DNA of 64,000 nt from an uncultured Rhizobiaceae group bacterium. Lineage in GTDB: Bacteria; Pseudomonadota; Alphaproteobacteria; Rhizobiales; Rhizobiaceae. Both the position numbers and the translations under genes were made by a program. The notes beneath the pieces were generated by a model. That model was not told the DNA's origin, did not search any database, and saw only the letters and a program-made list of their open reading frames with translations. Shown here piece after piece: positions 21,528 through 37,136 of the stretch. Every line of letters begins with the position of its first letter. Within the stretch, counting starts at the first letter, position 1. Location of the stretch: assembly GCA_947501445.1 (NCBI GenBank), contig CANMVS010000004.1, positions 1 to 64,000 of the forward strand, read 5' to 3'.

Positions 21528-22727
21528 GTGGCAAAAACGGCACAGAATTCATTGGCATCACCCAATATCATTCAATCGAAACGGGTTCTTCGAGTCCTTG
21601 GTACTTCTGTCACTCATTTCGAAGAATTGCGCGTGGCGGCAGAAGCTGATCTGGGACTTAAAATCGAATTCACCACGTTGAACGGAACCGAGGCTCAACG
21701 TCGGGGGGCACTTTCGCCTGCCAGCTTTGATCTGTACGACCAATGGTTCCATGATATTGATCTGATTTGGCCGACAGGGTCTCTCCAACCCATCAACGTA
21801 GAGCGGATTGACAGCTGGAGTGATATTGGTGATCTGCCGAAAACCGGTTGCCTGTCTTCCGGACAGGTCACTGCGCCCGGCGGAGATCCCAGTCAAAAAC
21901 TGTTTGTGCAAAGAAACGGGTCACTGAGCAACATTCCCACCCATCAGATATCCATGATGCCGACAGTGCATAATGCCGATAGTTTCGGTACGATTGGCAC
22001 CGGGTCAGTCGATATTCAAAGTTGGGCGGCTTTTATTGACCCCCGATGGACGGGAAAGATAATTCTGCAAAGCGACGCTGCCATCGGCAGTCTTGATATG
22101 CTCATGGCGCTTGGTGCGTCCAGGAATATCAACATTCAGGACATCGGAAACCTGTCGCTGAGCGAGATCGACCTGCTCACCAAAAAACTGACTGAATACA
22201 ATGGGTTGGGTCAATTCAAGGCTTTCTGGGCTGATGAATCTGAAGCCATCAGCGCCTTTCAGTCAGATGAGCCTGTTATCGGCAGTCTTTGGTGGTCCGG
22301 CGCGGTTAAACTGCGCGCCCTTGGTATTCCGGTATCGATGGCGACACCGGTTGAAGGCTACCGTGGCTGGTTCGGTGGCATAGCCCTTTCGAGACATTCA
22401 AAGGGCGCCGTTCTGGATATGAGCTACGATTACATGAATTGGTGGCTTTCAGGATTGCCGGGTGCCCTGATGGCCAGAAATGGCGCCTATATGACGAACT
22501 CAAAGGCTGTCAAATTGCATCTAAGTCCTGCCGAATGGGAATTCTGGTACGAAGGCAAAGCGGCAAAAACGCCAATCACCGACCCCAGGGGAGTAAAAAT
22601 TTACGATGTTGGAGAGTGTCGTGGTGGCGGCTCCTATTATGAAAGAATGTCCCGTGTCGCGGTCTGGGATTCGGTTATGCAGGAGCACAATTATCTGGTC
22701 CGGTGCTGGGATAATGCGATTGCGTGA
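21528..22727 (+). CDS. PotD-like solute-binding protein without an export signal
   Basis: This 399-residue protein is a paralogue of the Tat-exported binding protein at 28378: both have Glu-Gly-Tyr-Arg-Gly-Trp, Tyr-Trp/Trp-Trp-Leu-Ser-Gly, Phe-Trp-Tyr-Glu-Gly-Lys and a Gly-Gly-Ser...Glu-Arg...Val C-terminal block. It begins at GTG 21528 with polar sequence and no Sec, Tat or lipoprotein signal, and an in-frame stop at 21501 rules out an upstream one. It may be cytoplasmic, for example a ligand sensor, or it may have lost its signal. It is convergent with the GntR gene. Confidence 0.75.
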   Translation: MAKTAQNSLASPNIIQSKRVLRVLGTSVTHFEELRVAAEADLGLKIEFTTLNGTEAQRRGALSPASFDLYDQWFHDIDLIWPTGSLQPINVERIDSWSDIGDLPKTGCLSSGQVTAPGGDPSQKLFVQRNGSLSNIPTHQISMMPTVHNADSFGTIGTGSVDIQSWAAFIDPRWTGKIILQSDAAIGSLDMLMALGASRNINIQDIGNLSLSEIDLLTKKLTEYNGLGQFKAFWADESEAISAFQSDEPVIGSLWWSGAVKLRALGIPVSMATPVEGYRGWFGGIALSRHSKGAVLDMSYDYMNWWLSGLPGALMARNGAYMTNSKAVKLHLSPAEWEFWYEGKAAKTPITDPRGVKIYDVGECRGGGSYYERMSRVAVWDSVMQEHNYLVRCWDNAIA

Positions 22728-22738
22728 CCAGTTTTTTG

Positions 22739-23770
22739 TCAGGTATCCATTCTGACCAGATAGGGTTTGGTTTCGGAGGTGGGAAAGACCGATATCGCCA
22801 TGAGCCGCTTCGACGTGCGTTCAGCAGCACGATTTAAATGTTCCTCAAGCGCCTGGGCGGCCAATTTGTAACTCCCGCGCTTTACAAAATTGAATATCAG
22901 TGCGTGTTCCTGCCAGGAATCCTCGAAAGGTTGTGTCCCGACGAAGGATGCAAACACATGGTTCACCACCAGGGCGAGTTGGCTTTGATTGACCATGCGC
23001 AACAGGTGTGGATTTGGTGATTTTGACAGCAGCGTAGTGTGTAAATCACGCTCGAGTTCACCAAGAAGGCTCACCGATATCTCGTCGGGTTCATGCTGAG
23101 CCTGATTCAACCGGTTCATCATCTCATCGAGCAGGTCCTCATTGATCAAAGGAACACTTTCCTCCAGCGCCAAAGGCTCCAACCTGGCTCTGATTGAATA
23201 ATAATGGGCCACCTCGGCAGCCGTCAGTGGCCCCATGACCCAATGGGAACGGGGGTCTTTTCGAACGATGCCGCGCACCAGCAGGCGCGATAGAATATCG
23301 CGTATAACGGTTCGGCTGACCTGAAAGTAATCGGCTGCGGCCTGCTCATTGATCCTGAACTTTCCAAATGGAAGGGCATGGACCAGGGCGTTTTCAAATT
23401 CCCTGAAGACGCGCTCTGACGTCAGCAGTGCCGCATCGCTTGCCGTGACCTCCGAAAGGCCCAGCATGTCGTAGGTTATATTGACCCGCAAAGGGTGGTC
23501 GTCATTGTCACCGGCAACAACAAATCCCCGACCGTCGAACCGTTTCAACAGGCCCTGCTCATTAAGAAACCCAAGTGCCGTTCGAACGGGCGTTCGACTG
23601 GACCTGAATAATTTGGCAATCGGGTCTTCCGTAAGCACTGCACCTGAGGGCAGCAGCCCATCTTTTATGGCGCGCTCAATCTTCGTGGCAATGACCTGAT
23701 ATCGAGGTCTTGCGACATCCAGATCAGCAGCTTCGAGCTGTTTTGCAGTGTTGTTAACAGTCATCATCAC
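22739..23770 (-). CDS. GntR-family regulator with two winged-helix domains
   Basis: A 343-residue regulator with an unusual layout: one GntR winged helix at about 22-86 (Arg-Ser-Ser-Arg-Thr-Pro-Val-Arg-Thr-Ala-Leu), a second at about 118-180 (Gln-Val-Ser-Arg-Thr-Val-Ile-Arg-Asp-Ile-Leu) and a FadR/FCD-like helical ligand domain (about 185-325). Normal GntR proteins have a single wHTH and about 230-250 residues. It is divergent from the ABC/dehydrogenase operon at 23963 and is its likely regulator. Three Met codons open the frame, so the exact start is uncertain. Confidence 0.85.
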   Translation of the reverse strand: MMMTVNNTAKQLEAADLDVARPRYQVIATKIERAIKDGLLPSGAVLTEDPIAKLFRSSRTPVRTALGFLNEQGLLKRFDGRGFVVAGDNDDHPLRVNITYDMLGLSEVTASDAALLTSERVFREFENALVHALPFGKFRINEQAAADYFQVSRTVIRDILSRLLVRGIVRKDPRSHWVMGPLTAAEVAHYYSIRARLEPLALEESVPLINEDLLDEMMNRLNQAQHEPDEISVSLLGELERDLHTTLLSKSPNPHLLRMVNQSQLALVVNHVFASFVGTQPFEDSWQEHALIFNFVKRGSYKLAAQALEEHLNRAAERTSKRLMAISVFPTSETKPYLVRMDT

Positions 23771-23922
23771 AATTCTCTATACCGATTTTTGTGTTCAATG
23801 TACGTTTTTTTATGTCTTTTTCCCTCTGTGCAATGCCATATTCCTTAAGTTTGGCGGCTCTTTTAAGACAATAATGTACTTTTTCGGTGTTCATAATTGA
23901 CTTTTGAACACAAAGTGCATTA

Positions 23923-23944
23923 TGTGTACAAAAAATTGCACACA
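23923..23944. promoter_or_regulatory. Candidate GntR operator upstream of the ABC operon
   Basis: TGTGT (23923-23927) and CACACA (23939-23944) form an imperfect inverted repeat just before the ribosome-binding site of the 23963 gene. The AT-rich 190-bp divergent region also has ATGTAC-type half sites near 23796 and 23875. These are plausible sites for the double-wHTH regulator. Confidence 0.35.
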
Positions 23945-23962
23945 AGGGAGGTTTAAACCAAT

Positions 23963-25069
23963 ATGCTGGAATTGGTTGACTTGGGGAAGTCATTTGACGG
24001 TGTAAGCGCAATAAATGGCGTATCGTTCGACGTTGGTGAAGATGAATACCTGACACTGCTGGGCCCCTCAGGTTCAGGAAAAACGGTGCTCCTGCGCCTG
24101 ATTGCAGGACTTGATCGACCCGATGCCGGTCGGATTGTTCTCAACGGACAAAATATCACCAATAAGCCAACGCACCTGCGCGGGCTTGGATTTGTGCAGC
24201 AAAAATACGCGCTTTTTCCCCATTTGTCCGTGCGTCAGAACATCAGCTTTGGCCTGACCAACCATCACTCAACACCAATCTCGGACGCCAATGAGGTCAA
24301 TCGCCTGTGTGACGAAATGCTGGAAATCGTTGGCCTTAGCGGCCTGGCGGATCGCGGCGTCGGCCAGATTTCCGGTGGCCAGAAACAACGGGTCTCGCTG
24401 GCAAGAACATTGGTCACAAAACCAAAACTGTGCCTGTTGGATGAACCTCTTGGGGCGCTCGATGCAAATCTGCGCGAGCGCATGACTGTCGAACTTCGCG
24501 ATATCAGAGCAAGGCTTGGTGTCAGCTTCATGCATGTGACCGGCAATGAAGATGAGGCTTTGGGCATGGGCGATCGCATGATTGTCCTGGATAAGGGCTC
24601 GGTTATCCAGATTGAAAAACCGGCCGATGTTTTCTCCAGACCCGCAACCGTCAGCGTTGCGCGCCATATGAACAATTATAACATTCTGCCCGGTTCAACC
24701 CGGAACAACCATTTTGTCTTTGCCGGTTCCAGACTTTCAATACCGGCAAATGTGGAGAATGCCGCTTTTTACGTTGTGGGCATAGACAAGGTTGCGGTCG
24801 AGCCTGTCGAGGCGCCCGAACGAAAGGATGCTGCCTCGATTGATGCAACTTATGTGGCCAGTGAATTTATGGGGTCCAGGGTTGTCTATCTGTTCGAACG
24901 CCAGGACGGACAGGTGTTCGAAGTCGAGCGTCACCTCAGTCGGGAAACACCGGTTAACTACATTCCAGGTGAAACAAGGCGCTTGAGCTGGGACGTGAAT
25001 GACGTTCTGACCTACGCGCCTGACGGCTCCCTTGTGAATAACAGCGCGCAATTGCGGGGAGCAGCATGA
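23963..25069 (+). CDS. PotA-like ABC ATPase lacking the switch histidine
   Basis: A 368-residue ATPase with TOBE-like C-terminus, the polyamine/iron/2-aminoethylphosphonate importer type. Walker A Gly-Pro-Ser-Gly-Ser-Gly-Lys-Thr (34-41), Q-loop Val-Gln-Gln-Lys-Tyr-Ala-Leu-Phe-Pro-His, signature Ile-Ser-Gly-Gly-Gln (Ile replacing Leu) and Walker B Cys-Leu-Leu-Asp-Glu-Pro are present. At the H-loop, where relatives have Val-Thr-His-Asp, it has Val-Thr-Gly194-Asn, so the residue that normally drives hydrolysis is missing. Ribosome-binding site AGGGAGG is strong. It overlaps the permease gene by 4 bp. A second, canonical ATPase at 29676 may pair with it. Confidence 0.88.
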   Translation: MLELVDLGKSFDGVSAINGVSFDVGEDEYLTLLGPSGSGKTVLLRLIAGLDRPDAGRIVLNGQNITNKPTHLRGLGFVQQKYALFPHLSVRQNISFGLTNHHSTPISDANEVNRLCDEMLEIVGLSGLADRGVGQISGGQKQRVSLARTLVTKPKLCLLDEPLGALDANLRERMTVELRDIRARLGVSFMHVTGNEDEALGMGDRMIVLDKGSVIQIEKPADVFSRPATVSVARHMNNYNILPGSTRNNHFVFAGSRLSIPANVENAAFYVVGIDKVAVEPVEAPERKDAASIDATYVASEFMGSRVVYLFERQDGQVFEVERHLSRETPVNYIPGETRRLSWDVNDVLTYAPDGSLVNNSAQLRGAA

Positions 25070-25956
25070 CACATATTTCCGATAGTCAGAACACGGATCA
25101 ACGACGCTTTTTTCAAAGGTATGCTCCCTATTTTCTGCTCGCGCCGGGTGTGACATGGATGGCCCTGTTCCTCGTCATACCGCTCGTGATGATGGTCTAT
25201 GTCAGTTTCTGGACACAAACCACATTTGCAATCAGCTCAGATTTGACAACAAAATCCTGGGTCACATTTTTCTCATCAGAAACCTATTTTGGTGCGCTCC
25301 TGCGCACCATACGAATCTGGCTGACAGTTTTGTTTTTCACATTTCTGCTGGGCTATCCAATAGCATTGTTCATCGGACTTTTCGTTCGAAGCAAAACCGT
25401 TCAAACGCTCCTGCTGGTCGCCTGTGTTATCCCGTTCTGGACTTCATTCCTGATCCGCGTTCTGGCCTGGCGTCCCATGCTGGGCAAGGAAGGTGCGGTT
25501 AATCTGGTCCTCCAAAAGATAGGCGTCATCAGCCAACCGATTGAGGTTTTGCTCTTCACAGAACTCTCTGTGGTCATTGGCATGGTCCAAATTTATGTCG
25601 TGTTCATGGTTGGTCCGATTGCTTTCATGCTCTCACGAATCGATGGCAGTCTGCTGGAGGCGGCGCGCGACATAGGCGCAACACCGCTGATGACATTCCG
25701 CAGAGTTATCTTCCCTCTCAGCCTGCCCGGTGTAACCGTTGGCGCCATTTTTGTCTCGGTGATGGTGTTGGGTGAATTCGCCACGGCTTCCGCCTTGTCA
25801 GGACGCAAGGTGAACCTGCTTGGCAATATCATCGTTACGCAAGTTGGGTCACTCAAATGGGCGTTCGCCGCCGTAATCGGTGTGGTCCTCACCATCGTCA
25901 TGGCCATTGTCATCACAGCGCTGCTGCGCCTCGTAAACCTTCGCGAAGAATTGTGA
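25066..25956 (+). CDS. PotB-like ABC transporter permease
   Basis: A 296-residue permease with six membrane helices and the EAA loop Glu-Ala-Ala-Arg-Asp-Ile-Gly-Ala near residue 200. It overlaps the ATPase gene by 4 bp and is followed 10 bp later by the second permease, a PotB/PotC pair. It forms the channel of an importer for an organic cation or similar solute. Confidence 0.9.
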   Translation: MTHISDSQNTDQRRFFQRYAPYFLLAPGVTWMALFLVIPLVMMVYVSFWTQTTFAISSDLTTKSWVTFFSSETYFGALLRTIRIWLTVLFFTFLLGYPIALFIGLFVRSKTVQTLLLVACVIPFWTSFLIRVLAWRPMLGKEGAVNLVLQKIGVISQPIEVLLFTELSVVIGMVQIYVVFMVGPIAFMLSRIDGSLLEAARDIGATPLMTFRRVIFPLSLPGVTVGAIFVSVMVLGEFATASALSGRKVNLLGNIIVTQVGSLKWAFAAVIGVVLTIVMAIVITALLRLVNLREEL

Positions 25957-25966
25957 GGAACTGACC

Positions 25967-26824
25967 ATGCATCATCTCACAAAAACCCGCTGGGCTCTGG
26001 CCGTCTACGCCGCTCTGTTTTTGGTCTTTCTATACGGGCCCTTTGTCGTCATGGGGATCCTGAGTTTCCAGCAGGGGCCTGAGGGCGGGCCTCAGTTCCC
26101 GATTATCGAGTGGTCCACATACTGGTATCAGCACGTCATCGGCATAGCGCCCGCATCCAGGGTCGCACCACTGCCGGTTGGCGACGCACTCATCAGGTCC
26201 CTGTCGCTTGCCTTTGCAACCATGGTCGTATCGACAATCCTTGGAACGCTGACGGCACAGGCATTCCGCACAAAATTCAAGGGCTCCGGCTTTGTATTCT
26301 ACCTCGTTGTTCTGGGCATGATGGTTCCTGGTGTATTGCTTGGACTGGGCATGTCGCTGGTGGCCGCCCAATTTGGAATTGACCGAAACTGGTGGTCAAC
26401 AGCATTTGTATTGCACGTGGTTTATACCTTCCCGTTTGCCTTCCTCGTCATGCTCGCCATTTTCAATCGCTTCGATGCATCCGTTGAGGAGGCTTCGCTT
26501 GCCCTTGGCGTTTCGCCGCGGCGAACCTTTCAGAAAGTGACCTTCCCGATCATTTTTCCGGGCATTTTGTCGGCGATGCTGTTTGCCTTCACGCTCAGCT
26601 ACGACGAGTTCCCCAGAACCCTGTTTACCGGCGGCTCACAGGTGACGATGCCTTTGGCAATCTACGGCACATTCTCGGTTGAAATTCACCCCAACCTGTT
26701 TGCGTTCGGTGTCCTGACAACATTGTTTTCTTTCGCTCTGCTGTCTGTTTACGCCATTTTGATGGGGCTATCTGCGAGACGATTATCAGTCCGTTCCACT
26801 GGAATTCAGGAGGACGTGACATGA
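25967..26824 (+). CDS. PotC-like ABC transporter permease
   Basis: A 285-residue permease with about six membrane helices and an EAA loop (Val-Glu-Glu-Ala-Ser-Leu-Ala-Leu-Gly-Val). An AGGAACTG ribosome-binding site precedes the ATG. Its stop overlaps the ATG of the first SDR gene (ATGA), so transport and oxidation genes are translationally coupled. Confidence 0.9.
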   Translation: MHHLTKTRWALAVYAALFLVFLYGPFVVMGILSFQQGPEGGPQFPIIEWSTYWYQHVIGIAPASRVAPLPVGDALIRSLSLAFATMVVSTILGTLTAQAFRTKFKGSGFVFYLVVLGMMVPGVLLGLGMSLVAAQFGIDRNWWSTAFVLHVVYTFPFAFLVMLAIFNRFDASVEEASLALGVSPRRTFQKVTFPIIFPGILSAMLFAFTLSYDEFPRTLFTGGSQVTMPLAIYGTFSVEIHPNLFAFGVLTTLFSFALLSVYAILMGLSARRLSVRSTGIQEDVT

Positions 26825-27567
26825 GCAGGTTCAAGGGTCAAAACGCTATCGTGACCGGAGCAGGCTCGGGCATTGGGCGGGCCATTGCCAACCGTCTTGC
26901 AGTTGAAGGCGCAAAAGTTGTCATCAATGACATCAATCTGCAGCGTGCCCAACAAACCGTCTCATCGATTGCAGACCTTGGATATGTGGCTATTGCCTGT
27001 GCTGGTGACATCAGCAATGAGCAGGATATCAATGCGACTTTTGATCTTTGTGAACAGGCCTTCGGACCTTGCGACATTCTGGTCAATAATGCCGGAATCG
27101 TTCAACAAAAACCCTTCGTCGACCTGAGCGTCGAGGACTGGGATCGAATGGTTGCGGTCCATCTGCGCGGCTGTTTTCTGGGCTGCAAACGGGCCGTTCC
27201 GAGCATGTTGGCACGCAAGTCCGGCTCGATCATCAACATTGCTTCCCAATTGGGACAAATAGGCGGCGTTGAGCTTTGCCATTACTCGTCAGCCAAGGCC
27301 GGGATCATTGGTCTCACCAAGGCCCTGGCGCGTGAACTGAGCAAACAGGGCATTCGGGTCAACGCCGTGGCACCCGGTCCCATCAACACAGAACTGGTGA
27401 TGGACCTTTCGCAGGAATGGCGAACCGCCAAAGCCGCCACGTTGCCGCAGGGCAAATTTGGATCACCCGAAGATGTGGCTGGCACGGTGGCCTTCCTCGC
27501 TTCAAGCGATGCCCGGATCTATGTGGGCCAAACGTTGGGGCCCAATTCCGGCGATGTGATGTTGTGA
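26821..27567 (+). CDS. SDR-family NAD(P)-dependent dehydrogenase (first of two)
   Basis: A 248-residue short-chain dehydrogenase with Thr-Gly-x3-Gly-x-Gly nucleotide motif (about 12-19), Asn-Asn-Ala-Gly (about 89-92), catalytic Ser in Ile-Ala-Ser-Gln near 142 and Tyr-Ser-Ser-Ala-Lys (about 156-160). The catalytic triad is intact. It would oxidise or reduce an alcohol/ketone of the imported substrate. Ten bp separate it from the second SDR, which shares only family-level similarity. Confidence 0.88.
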   Translation: MSRFKGQNAIVTGAGSGIGRAIANRLAVEGAKVVINDINLQRAQQTVSSIADLGYVAIACAGDISNEQDINATFDLCEQAFGPCDILVNNAGIVQQKPFVDLSVEDWDRMVAVHLRGCFLGCKRAVPSMLARKSGSIINIASQLGQIGGVELCHYSSAKAGIIGLTKALARELSKQGIRVNAVAPGPINTELVMDLSQEWRTAKAATLPQGKFGSPEDVAGTVAFLASSDARIYVGQTLGPNSGDVML

Positions 27568-27577
27568 GGAAAGATCC

Positions 27578-28330
27578 ATGAAAACCGTTTTAATTACAGG
27601 CGCCGCAATTGGCATTGGCAGGGCAACTGCACATGCATTCTCAAAGGCAGGCTATCGCGTGATCGTGACAGATGTATTGGAGCATGAGGGCCAGGAGGTT
27701 GCCAATGCAATTCAGGCATCAGGTGGCAAGGCCGAGTTCTATCCATTGGACGTTACATCAACACAGGCCACCAACGCGCTTGTAGAAAAAATCGAGGCGT
27801 CCCACGGCGCGATTGACTGCCTGGTGCCCAATGCCGGTATTGCCCATAAAATTCCTCTTGATGAGCTGACCGATGAAAAATGGGATCACACATTTGATAT
27901 TGATCTGAAGGGAATGATGCGGCTGGTGCGCGCTGCATCTGCCAAAATGAAACAGGCGGGTCGCGGCAGCGTCGTCTGTCTGTCTTCGATTATGGGCGTT
28001 GCCTATGGGTGGGACGAGCATGTTCATTATTCTGCGGCAAAATCCGGTGTCGTGGGTCTGGTCCGTGGTCTGGCGGTTGAGCTGGCCCGACACGGCATTC
28101 GGGTCAATGGTATCGCGCCCGGCTACATTCGCACCGCACAGGCACTTTCCGAAAAACATTCACTGGGCCCTGAGCGCCTGGAACAAGCTGCGTCTTTTAT
28201 CCCCATCGGCCGCGTAGGCGAGCCGGAGGATATTGCAGACGTCATCGTATTTCTCGCGTCGGATTCTGCCCGGTATCTCACCGGACAAGTTGTGACCGTC
28301 GATGGGGGATTGCTGGTTGGCCGTTACTGA
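27578..28330 (+). CDS. SDR-family NAD(P)-dependent dehydrogenase (second of two)
   Basis: A 250-residue short-chain dehydrogenase: Thr-Gly-Ala-Ala-Ile-Gly-Ile-Gly nucleotide motif near the N-terminus, Pro-Asn-Ala-Gly in place of Asn-Asn-Ala-Gly, catalytic Ser in Leu-Ser-Ser-Ile near 140, and Tyr-Ser-Ala-Ala-Lys near 154. Ribosome-binding site GAGGAAAG. Two adjacent SDRs suggest a two-step oxidation or opposite stereochemistry on one substrate. Confidence 0.88.
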   Translation: MKTVLITGAAIGIGRATAHAFSKAGYRVIVTDVLEHEGQEVANAIQASGGKAEFYPLDVTSTQATNALVEKIEASHGAIDCLVPNAGIAHKIPLDELTDEKWDHTFDIDLKGMMRLVRAASAKMKQAGRGSVVCLSSIMGVAYGWDEHVHYSAAKSGVVGLVRGLAVELARHGIRVNGIAPGYIRTAQALSEKHSLGPERLEQAASFIPIGRVGEPEDIADVIVFLASDSARYLTGQVVTVDGGLLVGRY

Positions 28331-28377
28331 CCAACCAGTTTGCCAAAACAAGCACGAACAATTCAATGGAGGAACGA

Positions 28378-29601
28378 ATGAACAACTTTATAATGAACCG
28401 GAGGCGCTTCCTTGCCAATTCCGGAACAGCAGCAGCCGTTGCAGCCGCATCGCCCCTGCTGATGAATTCGCAGATGGCCTGGGCAGCTGGTATTGCAGAT
28501 CAGGAGCTGCGCACCGTCGGCCTTTCGGTCACCGTTCAGGAACGCATTCTCAACGACTTCAAAAACAAGTCTGGTGTTGGTTCAGTCAATGGCAAGGCCG
28601 CTATCTTCCCTGATACGCAAACAGAACTTTTATCCGGTTCGAAATCGTATGACAGCTGGGAAATAATTGGCGAACGTTTGCCGGCGATGACCCAGACAAA
28701 CACGATCGCCGCGATCGATACCAAGAACCTGTCCAACTGGGCCAATATTCGCTCAATCTTTGTTGACACAGATCCACGCATGGAACCGCGCGCGCAGATA
28801 TCCGGTCAGATCTGGGCCGATGCAGCCAAAACCGAATTGTGGATGGTGCCGTCTGTCTTCAACTTCGATTCCATTGGATACCGCCCCGACCTGGTCAGTG
28901 CCGAAGAGGCCAATACATGGACAGCTCTGTTTGATCCAAAGTTCAGAGGAAAAACCGGTTTGAACGTTGATCCGCTTATTGCGATCGGACAGGCCATTCT
29001 CGCCATGAACTCACTGGGCCTGCTCAATGTTGCCAACCCGGGCAACCCGAACAGGCAAGAGATTGATGAAGCCGCGAAGTTCCTGATTTCCAAGAAGAAG
29101 GAAGGTCAGTTCCGCGCATTGTGGGGTGACTTCGGGGAGTTGGTCAATCTGCTGGCCTCTGGGGAAATGATCCTTGCAGATGCCTGGCAGCCAGCCGTCA
29201 TGGCCGTCAAGGCACAGGGTATTCCCTGTTCATATGCGGTGCCAAAAGAAGGCTATCGCGGATGGTCAATTGGCGTGTCGCAGGTGGCAGGCACACCCAA
29301 TGCGCAGGCCGTTGAAGCCTATGCCGATTACTGGCTGTCCGGACCTCCCGGCGTTCTTGTTTCCGAGCAGGGTTACTACTCACCGACAACGAACATCAAG
29401 GATGTCATGCAGAAAGACAAATACGACTTCTGGTATGAGGGCAAACCCTGGGTCGGTGCTGAGGAACGCGGCATCAAGGAGGGCGACCTTCGCGATGGTG
29501 GTTCATTGCAGGAGCGCGCAAGCAAGGTCTCCTACTGGCACCAGTGGCCTGATGAATACGATCACCTCATTCAACGTTGGGATGAATTCCTGAGCGCATA
29601 A
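28378..29601 (+). CDS. Tat-exported PotD-like substrate-binding protein
   Basis: A 407-residue solute-binding protein with a twin-arginine signal (Met-Asn-Arg-Arg-Arg-Phe-Leu, then an Ala-rich stretch ending Ala-Trp-Ala near residue 37), so it is exported folded. The ATG at 28378 is chosen because the in-frame ATG at 28366 is part of the GGAGGAACGA ribosome-binding site. It is the periplasmic receptor for the PotABC-like importer upstream and a paralogue of the signal-less protein at 21528. A stable hairpin follows the stop. Confidence 0.88.
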   Translation: MNNFIMNRRRFLANSGTAAAVAAASPLLMNSQMAWAAGIADQELRTVGLSVTVQERILNDFKNKSGVGSVNGKAAIFPDTQTELLSGSKSYDSWEIIGERLPAMTQTNTIAAIDTKNLSNWANIRSIFVDTDPRMEPRAQISGQIWADAAKTELWMVPSVFNFDSIGYRPDLVSAEEANTWTALFDPKFRGKTGLNVDPLIAIGQAILAMNSLGLLNVANPGNPNRQEIDEAAKFLISKKKEGQFRALWGDFGELVNLLASGEMILADAWQPAVMAVKAQGIPCSYAVPKEGYRGWSIGVSQVAGTPNAQAVEAYADYWLSGPPGVLVSEQGYYSPTTNIKDVMQKDKYDFWYEGKPWVGAEERGIKEGDLRDGGSLQERASKVSYWHQWPDEYDHLIQRWDEFLSA

Positions 29602-29612
29602 CGGACCAACCG

Positions 29613-29641
29613 GGCTGTGGGCATATGCAGTGCCCACAGCC
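29613..29641 (+). promoter_or_regulatory. Intercistronic hairpin after the binding-protein gene
   Basis: A perfect 11-bp stem (GGCTGTGGGCA / TGCCCACAGCC, 7-nt loop) begins 12 bp after the stop of the binding-protein gene, with no T-run and the same operon continuing. Such hairpins often protect the upstream message, so more binding protein is made than ATPase. A similar hairpin follows the TctC gene at 54919. Confidence 0.65.
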
Positions 29642-29675
29642 ATTGAATGAAGCAATTCACAGGCATCACACAGCA

Positions 29676-30791
29676 ATGAAAACATTCGATCTTGAACTCA
29701 AAAAACTGCGTAAAGTCTATCCGGGCGACACGCTTGCCGTGGAAGCATTTGACCTGCAGGTCGAACGCGGTGAATTCATTTCGTTTGTTGGGCCATCAGG
29801 CTGCGGCAAGACAACGACGTTGCGCATGATTGCGGGGCTGGAAAGCATTACATCCGGCGATCTGATCATCCGCGGCAAGAATTTCACCAATGTTGCGACC
29901 GAGCAACGTCCGACCGCAACGATATTTCAAAATTACGCGATTTTTCCGCATATGACCGTACGAGAGAACATCGAATTTGGTCTTCATGTTCGAAAGGTAG
30001 CCAGCAATGAACTGACCAAAAGGGTCGATTCAATCATTGAAAAACTGGAGCTTGGCGACATCCAGCACGCCCGGGAAAACGCATTGTCCGGCGGTCAGAA
30101 ACAGCGCCTTGCTCTGGCAAGGGGATTGGTCACCGAACCCGATATACTGCTGCTTGATGAGCCATTGGGAGCATTGGATGCCAATCTGCGCAAATCCATT
30201 CAGGAAGAACTCAAACTGCTTCAGCGCTCACTGAATATTACCTTTGTGTTCGTGACCCACGCACAGTCCGAGGCGCTTTCCATGGGCGACAGGGTCGTCG
30301 TTATGAACGCTGGCAGGGTCGAGCAGATTTCAGCTCCCTACGAATTGTATACCCGGCCAAAATCTTCGTTCGTGGCCAATTTTATCGGTAGAAATATCCT
30401 GATTGAAGGCAAACTTGCCGGCTCTGACGGCAAATTGGCCACCGCGGGCACGGCTTTTGGAACGCTGTCCGGCATTCCAAGTTTTGATCGCAGTGCCGCC
30501 CGGACCGGAAGCGACGTTCAGGTCGTCGTGCCCTCTGAACTGGTCAGCGTCAACAAACCGGGTTCCGAACCAGATCCCGGCGAGCATGGCATATCGGGAA
30601 CCGTCAAAGGCCTGAACCGGGTCGGGCGCGTCATCCATACAATTCTTGAACTGTCCGATGGCAACGACCTTCAGATCGAAACCTATGCTGAAAATATTGC
30701 CGCCCTCGACCTGACCCCGGGCTCTTCTGTCGATCTTCGATGGGCCTGTGAAATGGCGACGGTTGTCTGGGATGCGCAGACCACCAATTAG
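29676..30791 (+). CDS. PotA-like ABC ATPase, canonical
   Basis: A 371-residue ATPase with TOBE C-terminus. Walker A Gly-Pro-Ser-Gly-Cys-Gly-Lys-Thr, Q-loop Phe-Gln-Asn-Tyr-Ala-Ile-Phe-Pro-His, signature Leu-Ser-Gly-Gly-Gln, Walker B Leu-Leu-Leu-Asp-Glu-Pro and the switch His195 (Val-Thr-His-Ala-Gln) are all intact, in contrast to the ATPase at 23963. ATG 29676 gives the normal N-terminus. There are no extra permeases beside it, so it probably joins the permeases at 25066-26824, perhaps as a heterodimer with the degenerate ATPase. Confidence 0.88.
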   Translation: MKTFDLELKKLRKVYPGDTLAVEAFDLQVERGEFISFVGPSGCGKTTTLRMIAGLESITSGDLIIRGKNFTNVATEQRPTATIFQNYAIFPHMTVRENIEFGLHVRKVASNELTKRVDSIIEKLELGDIQHARENALSGGQKQRLALARGLVTEPDILLLDEPLGALDANLRKSIQEELKLLQRSLNITFVFVTHAQSEALSMGDRVVVMNAGRVEQISAPYELYTRPKSSFVANFIGRNILIEGKLAGSDGKLATAGTAFGTLSGIPSFDRSAARTGSDVQVVVPSELVSVNKPGSEPDPGEHGISGTVKGLNRVGRVIHTILELSDGNDLQIETYAENIAALDLTPGSSVDLRWACEMATVVWDAQTTN

Positions 30792-30834
30792 CCGAACCTC
30801 TTAATGTCGAACAACCAAACAGGAAGATTTTTAA

Positions 30835-31716
30835 ATGGCAAAAGATATCAAATGTGCATTCGGTGTTGATGTGGACGCCGTCGGTGGCTGGCTTGGATCA
30901 TATGGCGGCGAAGACAGCCCCTGTGATATTTCACGCGGGCTCTTTTCGGGTGAAGTTGGTTCTGTACGACTGTTGAAGATGTTTGAACGTTTTGGCATCA
31001 AAACAACCTGGTTCATTCCCGGTCATTCCATCGAAACATTTCCTGAACAGATGCAGGCCGTTGCCGACGCTGGCCATGAAATCGGCATGCACGGCTATAG
31101 TCACGAAAACCCGATTGCCATGACACCGCAGCAGGAAGAAGCCGTGATGGACAAGTCCATCACGCTGATTGAAAACCTGTGCGGTCGCAGACCAACCGGC
31201 TATGTGGCGCCGTGGTGGGAGTTTTCTCCCGTTTCCAATGAACTGCTGTTGAAAAAAGGCATCAAATACGACCACTCGCTGATGCACAATGATTTTGAAC
31301 CCTATTATGTGCGTGTTGGTGATCGCTGGACCAAGATTGATTATACCAAGAAAGCAGAAGAGTGGATGAAGCCACTGGTTCGGGGCCAGGAAAGCGAGCT
31401 TGTCGAAATTCCCGCCTCCTGGACGCTCGACGATCTTCCGCCGATGATGTTCATGAAGGCTGCTCCGAACAGTCATGGATTTGTCGATCCACACGTCGTT
31501 GAGCGCATGTGGCGTGATCAGTTTGACTGGGTCTACCGTGAGATGGATTACGGTGTTGTGACATTTACAATTCACCCGGATGTATCTGGCAAGCCGCATG
31601 TTCTGATGATGCTGGAACGCCTTTACAACCATATCATCCGTCATCCCGGTGTGTCTTTTGTGACTTTTGATGAAATCGCCAATGACTTCAAGAAACGCAA
31701 TCCTCCCAAGGCCTGA
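30835..31716 (+). CDS. Polysaccharide-deacetylase-family (NodB fold) hydrolase
   Basis: A 293-residue cytoplasmic-looking (no signal) member of the carbohydrate esterase 4 fold, nearest by eye to the Helicobacter HP0310/PgdA and PuuE allantoinase-like branch. Metal ligands are likely Asp12/Asp14 (Gly-Val-Asp-Val-Asp) and His86 and His90 (Met-His86-Gly-Tyr-Ser-His90-Glu). A Tyr-Val-Ala-Pro-Trp-Trp-Glu block and a late Thr-Ile-His-Pro-Asp complete the site. These enzymes cleave C-N bonds of amides or N-acetyl groups with one divalent metal. Given the operon (amidase, CobW metallochaperone, ABC importer) a small amide or ureide substrate fits better than a polymer. Confidence 0.8.
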
Positions 31717-31728
31717 CCTGAAGTCAAA

Positions 31729-31756
31729 GGGGTGGAGCAGACCCTTGCTTCACCCC
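31729..31756 (+). terminator. Hairpin after the deacetylase gene
   Basis: An 11-bp stem (GGGGTGGAGCA / TGCTTCACCCC, one G-T pair, 6-nt loop) starts 12 bp after the stop of the deacetylase-family gene. The following ATTTCGATT is only weakly T-rich, so it may be a partial terminator or an RNA-stability hairpin; the genes downstream continue on the same strand. Confidence 0.5.
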
Positions 31757-31777
31757 ATTTCGATTGGATGATTATAC

Positions 31778-32101
31778 ATGTGCGGACTATGCGGCCTTTT
31801 GGGCATTACACATTGGACAGAGACGTCGGCTCACACGGATGCTTTTACCGGTAACACGCGTAACACCCTTCGGGCCGAGCGCCTCCATCGCACCAGGATC
31901 GTCAATGCTGCGCTTTGCCCGAAACGGGTTCGTATTTCCGACTTTCAGGCAACCAGCTATCTCCTGTCATCCCCCACAGGCAAGAGCGTTATTGTTGATG
32001 ACATTCAGGCCGTTTGGGGCGCATTCGAGACGCTGACAGGCAGTATTCTGGATCCTCTTGATGCCAATTATCTGGAAACATTGAAACAGGTATCGCAATG
32101 A
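31778..32101 (+). CDS. Small MCGLCG-start protein, upstream partner of CobW
   Basis: A 107-residue protein starting Met-Cys-Gly-Leu-Cys-Gly-Leu-Leu-Gly. The N-terminus recalls class II glutamine amidotransferases, but it is far too short and has no other sign of that fold. Two Cys near the start and Cys46 could bind metal or a cofactor. It overlaps the CobW gene by 4 bp (ATGA), and I recall similar small proteins beside CobW GTPases in other alphaproteobacteria. Function unknown; a partner or metal-related role is an inference from position. Confidence 0.65.
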   Translation: MCGLCGLLGITHWTETSAHTDAFTGNTRNTLRAERLHRTRIVNAALCPKRVRISDFQATSYLLSSPTGKSVIVDDIQAVWGAFETLTGSILDPLDANYLETLKQVSQ

Positions 32102-33162
32102 TACCTGTCAATGTTGTCACCGGTTTTCTCGGATCAGGAAAGACCACACTGCTTAAGGAAATTCTGCAAAAACCAGAGTTCAATGACACCGCTGTCATCG
32201 TCAACGAGTTTGGTGAAGTGGGCCTGGATCATATCCTGCTGGAGGAAGTTGAAGAGGGCATTCTGTTGCTTGAAAGCGGATGCATTTGCTGCACCATCCG
32301 ATCTGACCTTCAAGAGACAATCAGATCCCTGCAGGCGAAAGCCGCAGCAAGCGAAATACCCGCCTTCAGCCGCCTTGTAATCGAGACAACCGGGCTGGCT
32401 GACCCGGCACCTATTGTATCCACGATTGCCGCCGAGCCTATCATTCGCAATCATTTTCGTATCGGCAATATAATATGCACGCTGGATGGCATTGCCGGAA
32501 TGCGCACCTTGAGAAATCATGAAGAGGGCATAAAGCAAATAGCCGTTGCCGATCGCATTCTCATCACCAAAACAGATATGGCTGAACCGGCGCTGGTATC
32601 ACAACTCGAATTGGAAGCGCATGGCGTAAATCCGCTTGCCCTGATCGGTCATTCAACCGGGTCCGGATTTGATGCATCACTGCTCATTGATGAGGACATC
32701 AATGATCCCGCAATGCGGGCCGCGGAGATTGGGCGTTGGTTTGACGCGAACCAGCTAGCGCAGATGAAAAATCACAAACATGCGCATGGGCACAGTCATC
32801 ACAGCCACGAGAACACAGCTGGTCTGAATTCATTCGTTGTCGAATATGAAAACCCGATAGACTGGACTGCATTTGGAATATGGCTGACGTCTTTGCTTCA
32901 TGCCCACGGCGAGCGCATCTTGCGGGTCAAAGGTCTTTTGAACGTTGCAGAAAGCACAACGCCGGTCATTCTGCATGGTGTGCAGCATGTGGTTCATGCG
33001 CCCATGCACCTTGAAAAATGGCCCGGTGATGATCGTAATTCCCGTATAATTTTCATAACCAAAGGTATTTCTGAAGCGGCAATCAAGACATCATTGACAG
33101 GTTTTTTGAGCCTGGCCGGGCGCGTATCTTCATTTTCTGATGAGGCTGTCGGCGTTGATTGA
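32098..33162 (+). CDS. CobW/COG0523-family GTPase (metallochaperone)
   Basis: A 354-residue P-loop GTPase: Walker A Gly-Phe-Leu-Gly-Ser-Gly-Lys-Thr-Thr (9-17), the family metal motif Cys62-Ile-Cys64-Cys65, and a His-rich stretch (about 226-239) before the CobW C-terminal domain (about 240-345). COG0523 proteins insert or allocate metals such as Zn, Co or Fe, including P47K activators of nitrile hydratases. It overlaps the MCGLCG gene by 4 bp and the transporter by 23 bp. The neighbour deacetylase-fold enzyme is the obvious possible metal client. Confidence 0.88.
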   Translation: MIPVNVVTGFLGSGKTTLLKEILQKPEFNDTAVIVNEFGEVGLDHILLEEVEEGILLLESGCICCTIRSDLQETIRSLQAKAAASEIPAFSRLVIETTGLADPAPIVSTIAAEPIIRNHFRIGNIICTLDGIAGMRTLRNHEEGIKQIAVADRILITKTDMAEPALVSQLELEAHGVNPLALIGHSTGSGFDASLLIDEDINDPAMRAAEIGRWFDANQLAQMKNHKHAHGHSHHSHENTAGLNSFVVEYENPIDWTAFGIWLTSLLHAHGERILRVKGLLNVAESTTPVILHGVQHVVHAPMHLEKWPGDDRNSRIIFITKGISEAAIKTSLTGFLSLAGRVSSFSDEAVGVD

Positions 33163-34063
33163 CAATTTCGTCAACACGATTGCTCCCTTTGCTGCCATAG
33201 GCTTTATCGGATGGGGATTTGCCAGATTTGAGGTATTTTCCCGCCAGGATGCCCAGTCGATAAATCGCTTTGTTTTTTACATCGCCTTGCCGGCTTTGAT
33301 GTTCCAGCTCATCGCCCTGGCGCCACGGGACGCATTCAATCTGACATTGGCAGGTGGTTATCTGCTGAGCGAATTGGTGATCTATTTCACCGGGTTTGCA
33401 ATTGCCTATTTTGGGTTCAGGCGCGACCGGCTGGAAGCAATTCTGATTGGCATGGTGTCAGCCTTTGTCAATCACGTGTTCTTTGTATTGCCCGTCGCTA
33501 TCGCTGCCCATGGCAGTTCGGCAATTGCGCCGGTCATGTCCATTGTCGTGATTGATTCCATTTTTTTATATGCAGGCACCATTCTGGTTCTCGATATTCT
33601 GACAACAAAGAGGCTCTCGCCGTTTCAGGTACTGCGCCAAACGTTTCGAAATCCTCACATCGTCGGCATTGTCGCCGGGCTCGTGTTCAATGTCAGTGAT
33701 CTGGCAATGCCAATTGGCGTTGCCAATTTCACTGCATTTGTGAGCGCAGCCGCCTCACCGGCAGCCATTTTCACTCTGGGTCTGATATTGGGTCTTCGCA
33801 ATGATCACGGCGACTGGCCATTGCCAATCTCGATCGCGCTTTTAAAGAGCGCTGTTCATCCGGTTTTGTTGCTGCTCATTTTCGTGGCTGGGATGGTACC
33901 GGGACCAAAAGCGCTCAACATGGCGATACTGGTGGCCGCCGGCCCCTGTGGTGCTCTTCCATTTGTATTGGCGCTTCACTACAAAATTAATGAGCGGGCC
34001 ATCGCCCAGACCATACTCGTTTCTTCAATCATCTCGCTGGCCGGTTTGAGTATTCTGATCTGA
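33140..34063 (+). CDS. AEC (auxin efflux carrier) family transporter
   Basis: A 307-residue membrane protein with about ten helices and an Ala-Leu-Pro-Ala-Leu-Met-Phe motif near residue 50, like malonate/auxin-efflux-type carriers. It overlaps the CobW gene by 23 bp. The ATG at 33140 is the listed start; TTG 33155, with a GAGG site about 9 nt upstream, is a credible alternative. It probably moves an organic acid released or used by the operon. Confidence 0.82.
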   Translation: MRLSALIDNFVNTIAPFAAIGFIGWGFARFEVFSRQDAQSINRFVFYIALPALMFQLIALAPRDAFNLTLAGGYLLSELVIYFTGFAIAYFGFRRDRLEAILIGMVSAFVNHVFFVLPVAIAAHGSSAIAPVMSIVVIDSIFLYAGTILVLDILTTKRLSPFQVLRQTFRNPHIVGIVAGLVFNVSDLAMPIGVANFTAFVSAAASPAAIFTLGLILGLRNDHGDWPLPISIALLKSAVHPVLLLLIFVAGMVPGPKALNMAILVAAGPCGALPFVLALHYKINERAIAQTILVSSIISLAGLSILI

Positions 34064-34087
34064 CTTTTGACATATGGAGACCACCAC

Positions 34088-35455
34088 ATGGATTATGGCA
34101 AGGCCCTGGACACACTGACAGCATCGCAAATCGGACGTGCTTTGGTCGATGGTACGTTACATGCTGTTGGCCTGACGCAAGTGGCATTGGAACGCGCTGA
34201 GAAAAGCACTCAGGCAAATATATTCATCAGCATTTCGCGCGAACGGGCTTTGAATGAGGCATCTGAAAGTTCGAAGAGGCACGCACGCGGCCAACCATTG
34301 TCAGCTTTGGATGGTGTGCCAATTGCGCTCAAGGACCTGATCGACAGAAAGGGTGAAATTACCACAGCGGGCTCGCAAATCTACCGCAACGCGCCTGCTG
34401 CATCTTCGGACTGCCCTGTCGCGTGCAACCTTTCTGCAGCCGGCATCATTTCAATTGGCAAAGTCAACCTCACCGAATTCGCTTATTCCGGCCTGGGTCT
34501 GAACCCCCACTTTGGAACACCTCACAATCCATTCAGTCCCGACGTTCCCAAAGTACCTGGCGGTTCTTCCTCAGGCACAGCCGTGGCAATTTCGGCCAAT
34601 ATTGTGCCCTGTGGCATTGGCACTGACACCGGCGGTTCCGTTCGCATACCATCTTCCTTTAATGGTCTGGTGGGTTACAAAAGCAGTTCCGGTCGAATTG
34701 ACACGACGGGTGTGTTTCCGCTTTCGCGTATTATGGACACGGTCGGACCTCTTGGCCGATCAGTAGAGGATTGCATCCACCTTGATCGTGCCCTTCGCGG
34801 ATTGAAATCCAAAACCATTGCCGCACGCGCCATAACAGGGCTTTTGATCCATGTTCCACAATCTGTTGTCATGAAGGATATTGAACCGGCCGTTGCACGA
34901 AATTTTCAATCCAGCCTGCGCTCACTGGAGGCGGCGGGCGCTATCATCAGGGAAGTGCCTTGTGTTGAATTCGAAGAGGTTATCAGACTTGGCAAAACAT
35001 ACGGTTCATTGACTGCTGCCGATGCCTATGTCGAACATCTGAACTTGTTTGAAAACTCAAAGATCAACCAGGTTGACCAGCGGGTCGTCGATCGCATTCT
35101 GGGCGGAAAATCCATGACCGCAGCCGATGTCATCTGCCTGCAAAGAGCCCGTGCTGACCTTATCGCCCGGATGAAGGCGAATTATTCTGATGGGCTGATC
35201 GCAATGCCCACAACCGCTATCACCGCGCCTGAGATTGACAGGCTTGAGCGCGACAAGGCCTATTTTCATCAAATCAACACGCTGGTTCTGCGCAATACAT
35301 CGCTGGGTAATTTTCTGGATTTGCCAGGTCTTGCCCTGCCCAATGGTGTGAATGAACAGGGAATGCCTACAAGCCTGTTGTTGAGTTCAGTCAGTGGAAC
35401 TGATGATGATCTTCAGGGCTATGGATTGGAGATCGAGCGTGTGATCTGCAAATAG
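34088..35455 (+). CDS. Amidase-signature family hydrolase
   Basis: A 455-residue amidase-signature enzyme. The Ser-cisSer-Lys triad is visible as Lys82 (Ile-Ala-Leu-Lys-Asp), Ser160 (Pro-Gly-Gly-Ser-Ser-Ser) and the nucleophile Ser184 (Gly-Thr-Asp-Thr-Gly-Gly-Ser-Val-Arg). It hydrolyses an amide to acid and ammonia. ATG 34088 has a GGAG site about 9 nt upstream; a TTG at 34067 would add a short polar tail. Last gene of the run; repeat copy A starts at its stop codon. Confidence 0.88.
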   Translation: MDYGKALDTLTASQIGRALVDGTLHAVGLTQVALERAEKSTQANIFISISRERALNEASESSKRHARGQPLSALDGVPIALKDLIDRKGEITTAGSQIYRNAPAASSDCPVACNLSAAGIISIGKVNLTEFAYSGLGLNPHFGTPHNPFSPDVPKVPGGSSSGTAVAISANIVPCGIGTDTGGSVRIPSSFNGLVGYKSSSGRIDTTGVFPLSRIMDTVGPLGRSVEDCIHLDRALRGLKSKTIAARAITGLLIHVPQSVVMKDIEPAVARNFQSSLRSLEAAGAIIREVPCVEFEEVIRLGKTYGSLTAADAYVEHLNLFENSKINQVDQRVVDRILGGKSMTAADVICLQRARADLIARMKANYSDGLIAMPTTAITAPEIDRLERDKAYFHQINTLVLRNTSLGNFLDLPGLALPNGVNEQGMPTSLLLSSVSGTDDDLQGYGLEIERVICK

Positions 35456-35618: not shown

Positions 35619-37130
35619 TCAATCAGATACCGGCACTTTGTCCGCTGCCTTCGATTTTTTCCTGACTGCAAACCAGATGGACCCGGCTATCAGCAGAAGG
35701 TTGACGATAATCAGGATCAGCGATACGGGCCGCTCAACAAATATCCAGTAGCCATCCTGTGAGATTAACAGGGAGCGGCGCAGATTGTTTTCCAGCAATG
35801 GTCCGAGAATGATCCCAATGACGATGGGTGAAAGCGGGTATGATGCGGCGCGCAGCAGGATACCGACGAGACCAAAACCGAACATGACCAAAAGATCAAA
35901 GACGGAGGCTTGCAGCGCAAAAGTGCCGATGGTGCATAACAGCAAAACAATGGGAATGAGATAGGATTTGGGCACACGCAGCACATAGACAAAAAGCGGC
36001 GTTGCCAGAATGCCGGCAATCAGAAGAAAGACATTGGATGTCAGATAAACAAGAAAAATACCGCCGACAATTTCGGGCTGTTGCTCAAACAGTGTCGGTC
36101 CTGGAAAATAACCCAATATAAGCAGCGCACCTATGAGCATTGCCGATGAGGCATCGCCCGGAATACCCAAAGCCAGCGACGGCACGAGCGTGCCACCAAC
36201 CGTGGCATTATTGGCACTTTCCGTCGCCACAACACCGCCCTCTTCGCCTTCACCGTATTTTTCGTCCGGACCGGCAGCAGCCTTGGCGACGGCGTAGGAT
36301 GTAAAGGAACTGATGACCCCGCCAGCACCCGGCAATGCGCCAAAAAACGCCCCTATTGTTGAAGAGCGCAGGAGGTTCTTCCAATGTTTGAGTGTCAATA
36401 GTACCGAGCCGAAACCCGGGCGGGCAATGTCTATTTTCGGCTTCTTTAAAAGGTCATTCCCCATCGTCTGATGGGCCATCTCTGATATGGCAAAGAGCCC
36501 GACAACCACTGCTACAATGTGAAAACCGTTCAACATGTGATGGGTGTCAAAGGTGAAACGGTAACCGGTTGAGAATTCATCCGTGCCGATGGTTGCGAGC
36601 AATAGGCCAAAACAGCCGGCAATCAGACCTTTCAGCAGGGAACCCTCGGAAATAACGGCGATGGCGATCAGCCCGGTGACGGCCAGGGCCGCATATTCGG
36701 GCGGCGCGAAATTGCTGGCAAATTGCGCCAGTGCCGGTGCCAACAGGATCAATACGCCGCCGCCGAACAATCCGCCCAGGGCTGAAGCTGATATGGCAAT
36801 GCCGATGGCATCCGACGCCCGGCCTTTTTGGGCCATAGGGTAGCCATCAAAAAGCGTGGCAGCAGCCAGTGGGGTTCCGGGAATGCGCAACAGGATGGCT
36901 GAGATTGAACCACCGCAGGATCCACCGACGAATATGGCAATCAAAAAACCCATTGCCGCGACCGGCGGCAGGCCAATCGCTACCGGCAACAATAATATGA
37001 TGCCCATGAGCGGCCCGAGACCGGGCAGTGCGCCGACAACCAGACCGAAGAGCACACCAAGCAGGGTCAGCCCAATGGCAGCCGGGGTCATGAAAAGGGC
37101 GTAGCCAGCAAGGATTGAATCAACAAGCAT
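35619..37130 (-). CDS. tctA: Tripartite tricarboxylate transporter large permease (TctA)
   Basis: A 503-residue membrane protein with about eleven helices. The TctA signature Leu-Pro-Gly-Leu-Gly-Pro-Leu-Met-Gly-Ile near 35-45 is clear, and a second conserved block Gly-Ala-Leu-Pro-Gly-Ala-Gly-Gly is near 265. It forms the channel of a sodium-driven solute importer with TctB and the periplasmic TctC. Gene order on the minus strand is TctC, TctB, TctA. Confidence 0.92.
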   Translation of the reverse strand: MLVDSILAGYALFMTPAAIGLTLLGVLFGLVVGALPGLGPLMGIILLLPVAIGLPPVAAMGFLIAIFVGGSCGGSISAILLRIPGTPLAAATLFDGYPMAQKGRASDAIGIAISASALGGLFGGGVLILLAPALAQFASNFAPPEYAALAVTGLIAIAVISEGSLLKGLIAGCFGLLLATIGTDEFSTGYRFTFDTHHMLNGFHIVAVVVGLFAISEMAHQTMGNDLLKKPKIDIARPGFGSVLLTLKHWKNLLRSSTIGAFFGALPGAGGVISSFTSYAVAKAAAGPDEKYGEGEEGGVVATESANNATVGGTLVPSLALGIPGDASSAMLIGALLILGYFPGPTLFEQQPEIVGGIFLVYLTSNVFLLIAGILATPLFVYVLRVPKSYLIPIVLLLCTIGTFALQASVFDLLVMFGFGLVGILLRAASYPLSPIVIGIILGPLLENNLRRSLLISQDGYWIFVERPVSLILIIVNLLLIAGSIWFAVRKKSKAADKVPVSD

Positions 37131-37136
37131 GCCGGG

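Follow-up and report, generated by a model that had tools for sequence, protein, structure and literature searches.

A CE4-fold hydrolase, a small cysteine protein, and a CobW-family GTPase form the conserved core of a candidate ring-compound catabolic operon in a Rhizobiaceae bacterium

The stretch of DNA analyzed here, called the window, comprises 64,000 nucleotides (nt) from an uncultured Rhizobiaceae bacterium (contig CANMVS010000004.1). The locus of interest within it is a run of 12 genes on the plus strand (positions 23963 to 35455), faced by a GntR/FCD regulator gene. Three adjacent genes of this run encode PDA, a CE4-fold hydrolase of the HpPgdA/cyclic imide hydrolase group (30835 to 31716; Polysacc_deac_1); MCG, a protein of 107 residues with an N-terminal MCxxCG...HW pattern (31778 to 32101); and a CobW-family (COG0523) GTPase with GCICC and a His-rich linker (32098 to 33162; PF02492 and PF07683), whose gene overlaps that of MCG by 4 nt. 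Upstream of PDA, the run begins with the ABC ATPase ATP1 (23963 to 25069; PF00005 and TOBE_2), which has VTG rather than VTH in its H-loop, and the ABC permeases PermA (25066 to 25956) and PermB (25967 to 26824), both matching PF00528. These are followed by two dehydrogenases matching PF13561/PF00106, SDR1 (26821 to 27567; TGAGSGIG and YSSAK) and SDR2 (27578 to 28330; TGAAIGIG and YSAAK), by SBP2, an exported binding protein with a twin-arginine signal (28366 to 29601; SBP_bac_8), and by ATP2, a canonical ABC ATPase (29625 to 30791; PF00005, VTH H-loop, LSGGQ). Downstream of CobW lie an AEC-type permease (33140 to 34063; Mem_trans, PF03547) and AMD, an amidase-signature hydrolase and proposed half-amidase (34067 to 35455; PF01425), which scored 522.9 bits against PRK06102 (cutoff, 559). 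A total of 40 open reading frames (ORFs) of the window were scanned for families, and all ORFs of the locus were confirmed with the places, families, and order that the first-pass annotation had given them.

Neighboring genes of the run overlap or are spaced by no more than 61 nt, with gaps, in order, of -4, 10, -4, 10, 35, 23, 43, 61, -4, -23, and 3 nt. The regulator gene (22739 to 23770, minus strand; PF00392 and PF07729) is divergent from the operon and separated from its first gene by 192 nt (23771 to 23962), a control region with imperfect inverted repeats, for example 23881-23904/23912-23935, which represent a candidate operator. The regulator had been described as carrying two winged helix-turn-helix domains. 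One GntR helix-turn-helix (24-85) and the FCD domain scored above cutoff, whereas the second stretch, an HTH_Crp_2 match, did not (19.5 versus 27). A terminator-like hairpin of 12 pairs lies inside the PDA-MCG gap (31729-31756), and therefore a single unbroken transcript of the operon is not certain; in the region as a whole, 23 terminator-like sites were found versus 15.0 ± 4.4 in shuffles. The hairpin possibly sets unequal levels of the enzyme and the chaperone. The same genes also occur together in genera, families, and phyla beyond those of the source bacterium, so chance is a very unlikely cause of their arrangement.

The conservation of the arrangement was examined with PDA as bait on genome contigs. 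At least 594 stretches matched, 556 were confirmed, and the best 80, with 76 to 98% identity, were kept; these loci are related and some contigs appear twice (L026 and L077), so the counts are not independent. Genes were labeled by their best BLAST match to the window proteins anywhere in the stretch. MCG was present in 76 and CobW in 75 of the 80 loci. Three of the four loci lacking MCG end about 2 kb past PDA and have a Pseudomonas-type order with MCG placed later; the fourth (L130), on a contig of a metagenome-assembled genome, runs on into unrelated genes. The assemblies of all four carry MCG on another contig, adjoined each time by CobW. At the 55 fully flanked loci, defined as those with at least 8.5 kb before the start of the PDA frame and at least 6 kb after it, MCG and CobW were found without exception, and they were the only labeled genes besides PDA present in all. 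SBP1, a second binding protein encoded beyond the regulator gene, was labeled in 45 of these loci and SBP2 in 25; the regulator was found in 42, SDR1 in 46, SDR2 in 43, and the amidase in 44. Both SDR labels and the amidase label occurred near PDA in 42 loci. At eight loci, PDA, MCG, and CobW stand without the labels for SBP2, the SDR pair, the amidase, and SBP1. The conserved core of the locus is thus PDA, MCG, and the CobW GTPase, and the family, linkage, and gene-order claims are held firmly. This is a strongly positive outcome for the neighborhood check that the first-pass annotation had proposed for the MCGLCG protein, CobW, and the deacetylase. That annotation had also named clusters consistently lacking the amidase or CobW as the result that would speak against it, and no such pattern was seen.

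The same association was found when genomes were sampled by taxonomy. MCG was detected in 20 of 337 genomes of the class, and 18 of 337 carried a PDA match beyond an E value of 1e-100, a line that was set after a score gap had been seen; the two draws of 337 appear to be the same genomes. All 18 genomes with a member of the PDA group have MCG, versus 2 of the 319 others (Fisher, 6e-28, with kinship ignored). With the source genome included, MCG was found in 22 of 151 relatives by a single-sequence search and in 6 of 299 genomes of the phylum. Another 26 loci, fetched for holding MCG, all carry PDA and CobW as well, and the trio also occurs in Rubrobacter, a member of the Actinomycetota.

Among solved chains, PDA matched HpPgdA of Helicobacter pylori (HP0310; PDB 3qbu) with 489 bits over 292 of 293 residues, and the runner-up reached 106.9 bits. 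Five residues, D12, D14, H86, H90, and H247, are invariant in the window PDA and 10 homologues and remain so in a set of 16 sequences that includes distant relatives. Y23, W127, W196, and L201 are invariant in the same 11 sequences. HpPgdA binds its ion through D14, H86, and H90; access to the ion is blocked by Y23, W127, W196, and L201, the small-molecule site is closed, and the protein has no signal peptide (PMC3084791). PDA is a full-length homologue of HpPgdA with the same metal ligands and the same closed pocket. HpPgdA was inactive on GlcNAc, chitotriose, N-acetyl dipeptides, and allantoin, as well as on N-acetyl putrescine, spermidine, and cadaverine, and its physiological substrate was left open in the 2011 structure paper, in which HP0312 served as a gene-context anchor (PMC3084791). 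HpPgdA is also the closest structural homologue of HxnM from Aspergillus nidulans, which is 64.2% identical to AAY98498, a cyclic imide hydrolase homologue of Pseudomonas putida (PMC9304392). By full-length similarity and metal ligands, PDA belongs with HpPgdA and the fungal HxnM in the cyclic-imide-hydrolase group of the CE4 fold.

MCG was searched for both by pattern and by profile. The pattern MC..CG finds it in 72 of the 80 PDA loci and the profile in 76. Across 113 profile hits in 113 loci, CxxC is present in all, CxxCG in 112, and HW in 108. The rows of two alignments (24 and 46 sequences) were picked by the pattern, which makes M1, C2, C5, and G6 invariant by construction; W80, G68, and D92 are invariant in both. 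MCG matched no Pfam family up to an E value of 10, no solved chain, and no relative in a scan of viral contigs. In the structural model (pLDDT, 80.6), the first 30 residues, which hold the CxxC and the His, are of low confidence; a helix comes next, then three strands, and finally two helices. A tail that is mobile and binds metal, carried by a small folded domain, would suit docking or relay between a GTPase and an enzyme. Among 75 MCG-CobW gene pairs, the overlap is 4 nt in 19 and 8 nt in 12; the remaining spacings are widely spread, an effect of the mechanical choice of ORF starts. In L196 (6114-6461), a locus without a labeled CobW, MCG is divergent and has CxxCS in place of CxxCG.

The CobW protein has the cobW and CobW_C domains, GxxGxGKT, and CxCC, and belongs to the COG0523/CobW superfamily. 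Like CobW, YciC/ZigA, and the nitrile hydratase activator, it is a G3E GTPase. It scored below the cutoffs of the named families GTPase PRK11537 (168.5 versus 361), cobalamin CobW (130.2 versus 332.1), and ZigA (102.9 versus 600). Nine CobW-domain matches were found in the source genome. An unrooted tree of 46 rows, in which three long branches were flagged, was built from a spread of 38 of the 108 linked CobWs, the window CobW, present both as such and as its genome copy, and another six CobWs of the genome, with two further genome matches outside the tree. The PDA-linked CobWs and the window CobW formed one group (99/91; 40 rows) apart from the six other CobWs of the genome. The clients of most COG0523 members are unknown, and the nitrile hydratase activator is an example of a COG0523 protein dedicated to one enzyme (PMC2770081). 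The available text of that survey names no MCxxCG partner for COG0523 GTPases, and the window subgroup may be one of its 15 COG0523 subgroups (PMC2770081).

The transport genes belong to the same superfamily of ATPase, permeases, and binding protein as importers of the PotABCD type. The window importer differs from these in having two ATPases, one of them with VTG, in scoring below the PotA cutoff, and in the company of a second, signal-less binding protein. A polyamine importer was rejected as an established identity; the ATPases scored 255.1 and 303 bits versus a PotA cutoff of 355.6 (TIGR01187), and the nearest solved chains of SBP2, putrescine and spermidine binders, were matched weakly. 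Both ATPases occur with both permeases in all 46 loci that have SBP2. At the switch-histidine site, ATP1 orthologues have VTG in 45 of 46 (one was unscored) and ATP2 orthologues have VTH in 46 of 46, while 15 other ATPases of the same loci have the histidine, 13 by a fixed rule and the remaining two by inspection. Judged from these sequences, the paired ATPases of the first-pass annotation are both present and look like a naturally asymmetric pair within one importer rather than parts of separate systems. The AEC gene had likewise been counted as part of the set. It was found in 2 of the 80 loci, in the nearest relative (L075, 69%) and in L079 (28%), and in only 1 of the 55 fully flanked loci, and it was rejected as a core part; we regard it as a lineage-specific addition.

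SBP1 (21528 to 22727, plus strand; SBP_bac_8, 3e-8) and SBP2 are paralogues (28% identity over 387 residues; E value, 1e-41). Residue 21 of SBP1 aligns with residue 48 of SBP2, just beyond the Tat signal of the latter. By the same rule, a twin-arginine motif before the first strand was found in 44 of 46 SBP2 orthologues and in none of the 69 scored among 72 SBP1 orthologues found; an earlier set of 21 SBP1 rows had been picked for plausible starts, and the test was repeated on all 72. The SBP1 frames of Pseudomonas begin at the first strand. A hydrophobicity scan did not separate the N termini of SBP1 (0.68 to 1.96) from those of SBP2 (0.27 to 1.67). On the basis of the alignment past the SBP2 signal, the absence of twin arginines, and the short frames in Pseudomonas, SBP1 appears to lack a signal and is probably a cytosolic paralogue of the importer's binding protein. 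The two had been read as paired binding proteins; they are indeed paralogues, but only SBP2 is predicted to be exported. SBP1 is kept in loci without SBP2, for example in Leisingera next to an NCS1-like permease and in Klebsiella next to an MFS permease, and is therefore unlikely to be part of the importer.

Clues to the substrate came from genes clustered near the trio in 117 loci (26 + 80 + 11; some contigs counted twice), with one representative per cluster named. PxpC-like genes were found in 32 loci, HyuA-like in 15, HyuB-like in 14, dihydropyrimidinase in 12, N-carbamoyl-D-amino-acid hydrolase in 9, and asparaginase-like in 7. The dihydropyrimidinase representative scored above its NCBIfam cutoff (564.6 versus 393.25), and the N-carbamoyl hydrolase matched solved enzymes with up to 432 bits. 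The HyuA- and HyuB-like representatives matched caprolactamase alpha and beta best, below the cutoffs, and the PxpC, asparaginase, and Leisingera NCS1 permease representatives were also below theirs. Plasmids of Skermanella and Paracoccus carry dihydropyrimidinase, SDRs, asparaginase, PDA, MCG, and CobW together. In some loci an asparaginase stands at or near the AMD position, and the importer is replaced by the NCS1-like permease in Leisingera and by the annotated MFS permease in Klebsiella. These recurrent neighbors point to small nitrogen rings, and none fixes the compound. The first-pass annotation had proposed breakdown of an imported amide, ureide, or N-acyl compound; the carbon-nitrogen hydrolases and the importer are in keeping with this, but the neighbors favor ring compounds over amides in general. 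The Klebsiella pneumoniae plasmid locus (L210, 5262-14382) encodes GntR, an amidase, PDA, the MFS permease, a pair of SDRs, MCG, and CobW, has a further gene in the position of SBP1, and lies beside insertion sequences. A second cluster type was seen in L050 (18486-24303) and L211 (1961-9210), with a urea carboxylase-associated protein, a distant PDA (27% and 56%, respectively), an amidase, and a PotABCD-like importer; neither MCG nor CobW was found in the L211 cluster.

We think it somewhat probable that the operon serves to catabolize a small cyclic imide or some cyclic amide or ureide close to it. The imide is favored mainly because the three enzyme types of the HxnW-HxnM-HxnN steps in Aspergillus nicotinate breakdown, namely, an SDR, an imidase-group enzyme, and an amidase, are encoded together in the window. 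In that pathway, HxnW converts a hydroxylactam to an imide, and HxnM is assigned the opening of the imide ring before the amidase HxnN acts (PMC9304392). The fungal system is eukaryotic and its HxnN is FAAH-like; the likeness is one of enzyme kinds, and the available parts of the article mention neither MCG nor CobW (PMC9304392). The P. putida cyclic imide hydrolase resembles the proposal in that an imide is opened to a half-amide before an amidase acts; MCG, CobW, and an importer are not mentioned with it in the text at hand. Substrate, metal, and MCG mechanism are put forward here as proposals. SBP2, PermA/PermB, and ATP1/ATP2 would import the compound, and one or both SDRs may oxidize or reduce a ring substituent, by analogy with HxnW. 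PDA, as a metal-dependent enzyme, would open the ring to give a half-amide, which the amidase, or asparaginase in some lineages, would cleave to a dicarboxylate and ammonia. An imidase/half-amidase route of this kind, in which an imide is opened to a half-amide and an amidase follows, reportedly operates in Blastobacter A17p-4. SBP1 may retain the ligand within the cytosol, acting as a buffer or a sensor, and the GntR/FCD protein presumably controls the operon.

CobW, in turn, may carry metal for the maturation of PDA, and MCG, with Cys2, Cys5, and His12 in its mobile N terminus, may dock or relay metal to PDA. Tentatively, we suggest that MCG and its own CobW clade make up a metal-loading system of two parts that is dedicated to a single group of cyclic imide hydrolases, comparable to HypA-HypB and UreE-UreG, which comes with a cytosolic copy of the importer's binding protein and, in one lineage, with an importer that has an asymmetric ATPase pair. 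The earlier suggestion of two carbon-nitrogen hydrolases and an importer, with a metallochaperone-type GTPase tied to the deacetylase-fold enzyme, is supported. Among the papers listed from the open-licence literature of PubMed Central, no recognizable description of the gene set was found, nor of a CobW linked to the enzyme group of PDA. The gene linkage points to a likely client and a likely partner of a COG0523 metallochaperone and gives the HpPgdA group a physiological context. Ring-amide breakdown would be connected with an operon that occurs on both chromosomes and plasmids, in Rhizobium, Shinella, and Pseudomonas among others. If the proposal is true, this COG0523 subgroup has one small partner and one client, both of them fixed.

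Several observations weigh against these proposals. The amidase is absent from 11 and SDR1 from 9 of the 55 fully flanked loci, and the counts of SDRs and amidases may include unrelated paralogues, as labels were accepted anywhere in the stretch. Six genomes of the class sample with weaker PDA relatives (E values of 1e-67 to 6e-61) lack MCG. In G318 (L188), the CE4 protein next to MCG-CobW shares only 30% identity with PDA, and a 10.5-kb contig of G462 shows MCG-CobW-amidase without PDA. In Variovorax and three haloarchaea, PDA relatives of 41 to 56% identity retain every metal ligand, and neither MCG nor CobW was found within 7 kb of these four by annotation, profile, or BLAST; the PDA fold as such therefore needs neither. 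PDA and MCG are separated by the terminator-like hairpin. HpPgdA made in Escherichia coli bore its ion without coexpressed partners, and the structure paper cites previous work that reported a deacetylase activity on crude peptidoglycan (PMC3084791). Thirteen positions distinguish the four partnerless relatives from 11 MCG-linked enzymes and could mark a contact surface. The CE4 neighbor of MCG-CobW in G318 possibly represents a second client group.

An alternative for the chemistry, which we regard as unlikely, is that the substrate is a cyclic ureide, dihydropyrimidine, or lactam of the hydantoin or 5-oxoproline type and that PDA is an allantoinase-like ureide hydrolase instead of an imidase. 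Genes for hydantoinase, N-carbamoyl-D-amino-acid hydrolase, and PxpABC-like and HyuAB-like proteins do recur near the trio, and the PuuE allantoinase is a structural relative of PDA. PuuE was nevertheless rejected as the identity of PDA, which falls far below its cutoff (TIGR03212, 75.1 versus 424.6 bits). Moreover, allantoin was not hydrolyzed by HpPgdA (PMC3084791), and no hydantoinase or 5-oxoprolinase gene was found among the 40 ORFs scanned in the window.

A second alternative concerns MCG and CobW, which might serve another protein or a general metal shortage response and travel as passengers in a mobile catabolic cassette. Many loci are plasmid borne (60 records for MCG and 87 for PDA relatives), and the distant PDA relatives without nearby partners and the hairpin between PDA and MCG would both fit such passengers. 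The two genes persist, however, at the eight loci from which the other parts are absent, MCG tracks the PDA group in the 337-genome sample, and no other labeled gene accompanies PDA at all 55 fully flanked loci. This explanation is accordingly given a low probability, and a service of MCG and CobW to PDA is preferred.

It is quite improbable that PDA removes the acyl group of an imported N-acyl compound (an N-acetylpolyamine, for example) or acts on a wall-derived fragment, with a polyamine importer feeding it and the amidase removing a second acyl group. The resemblance of the importer parts to PotABCD fits this scheme, as do the polyamine importers and D-Ala-D-Ala peptidases with which HpPgdA homologues were noted to be associated and the cited activity on crude peptidoglycan (PMC3084791). 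The substrates on which HpPgdA was inactive include GlcNAc, chitotriose, and the N-acetylpolyamines, however (PMC3084791), and both ATPases lie below the PotA cutoff. In addition, some loci have NCS1-like or MFS permeases, and many have ring-opening enzymes.

Class II amidotransferases start with MCGIxG. That MCG is a small catalytic subunit of this N-terminal-nucleophile (Ntn) type is very improbable, and a class II glutamine amidotransferase was rejected, for although MCGLCG resembles that start and the Cys after the start residue and Gly6 are found in 112 of 113 hits, MCG has only 107 residues, none of 46 members had a Pfam match beyond noise, the modeled N terminus is low-confidence helix or coil and not a strand, and Cys2 and Cys5 are equally conserved, a pattern more in keeping with metal or disulfide chemistry.

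The operon is flanked by other blocks on the minus strand. An arginase-family ureohydrolase and an amino acid-type ABC importer (16232-20333) make up a second nitrogen-compound block alongside it. Directly 3' of the operon lies a tctABC-type tripartite tricarboxylate transporter (35619-38663), and a sulfatase gene (38688-40277) is next after the tctABC set.

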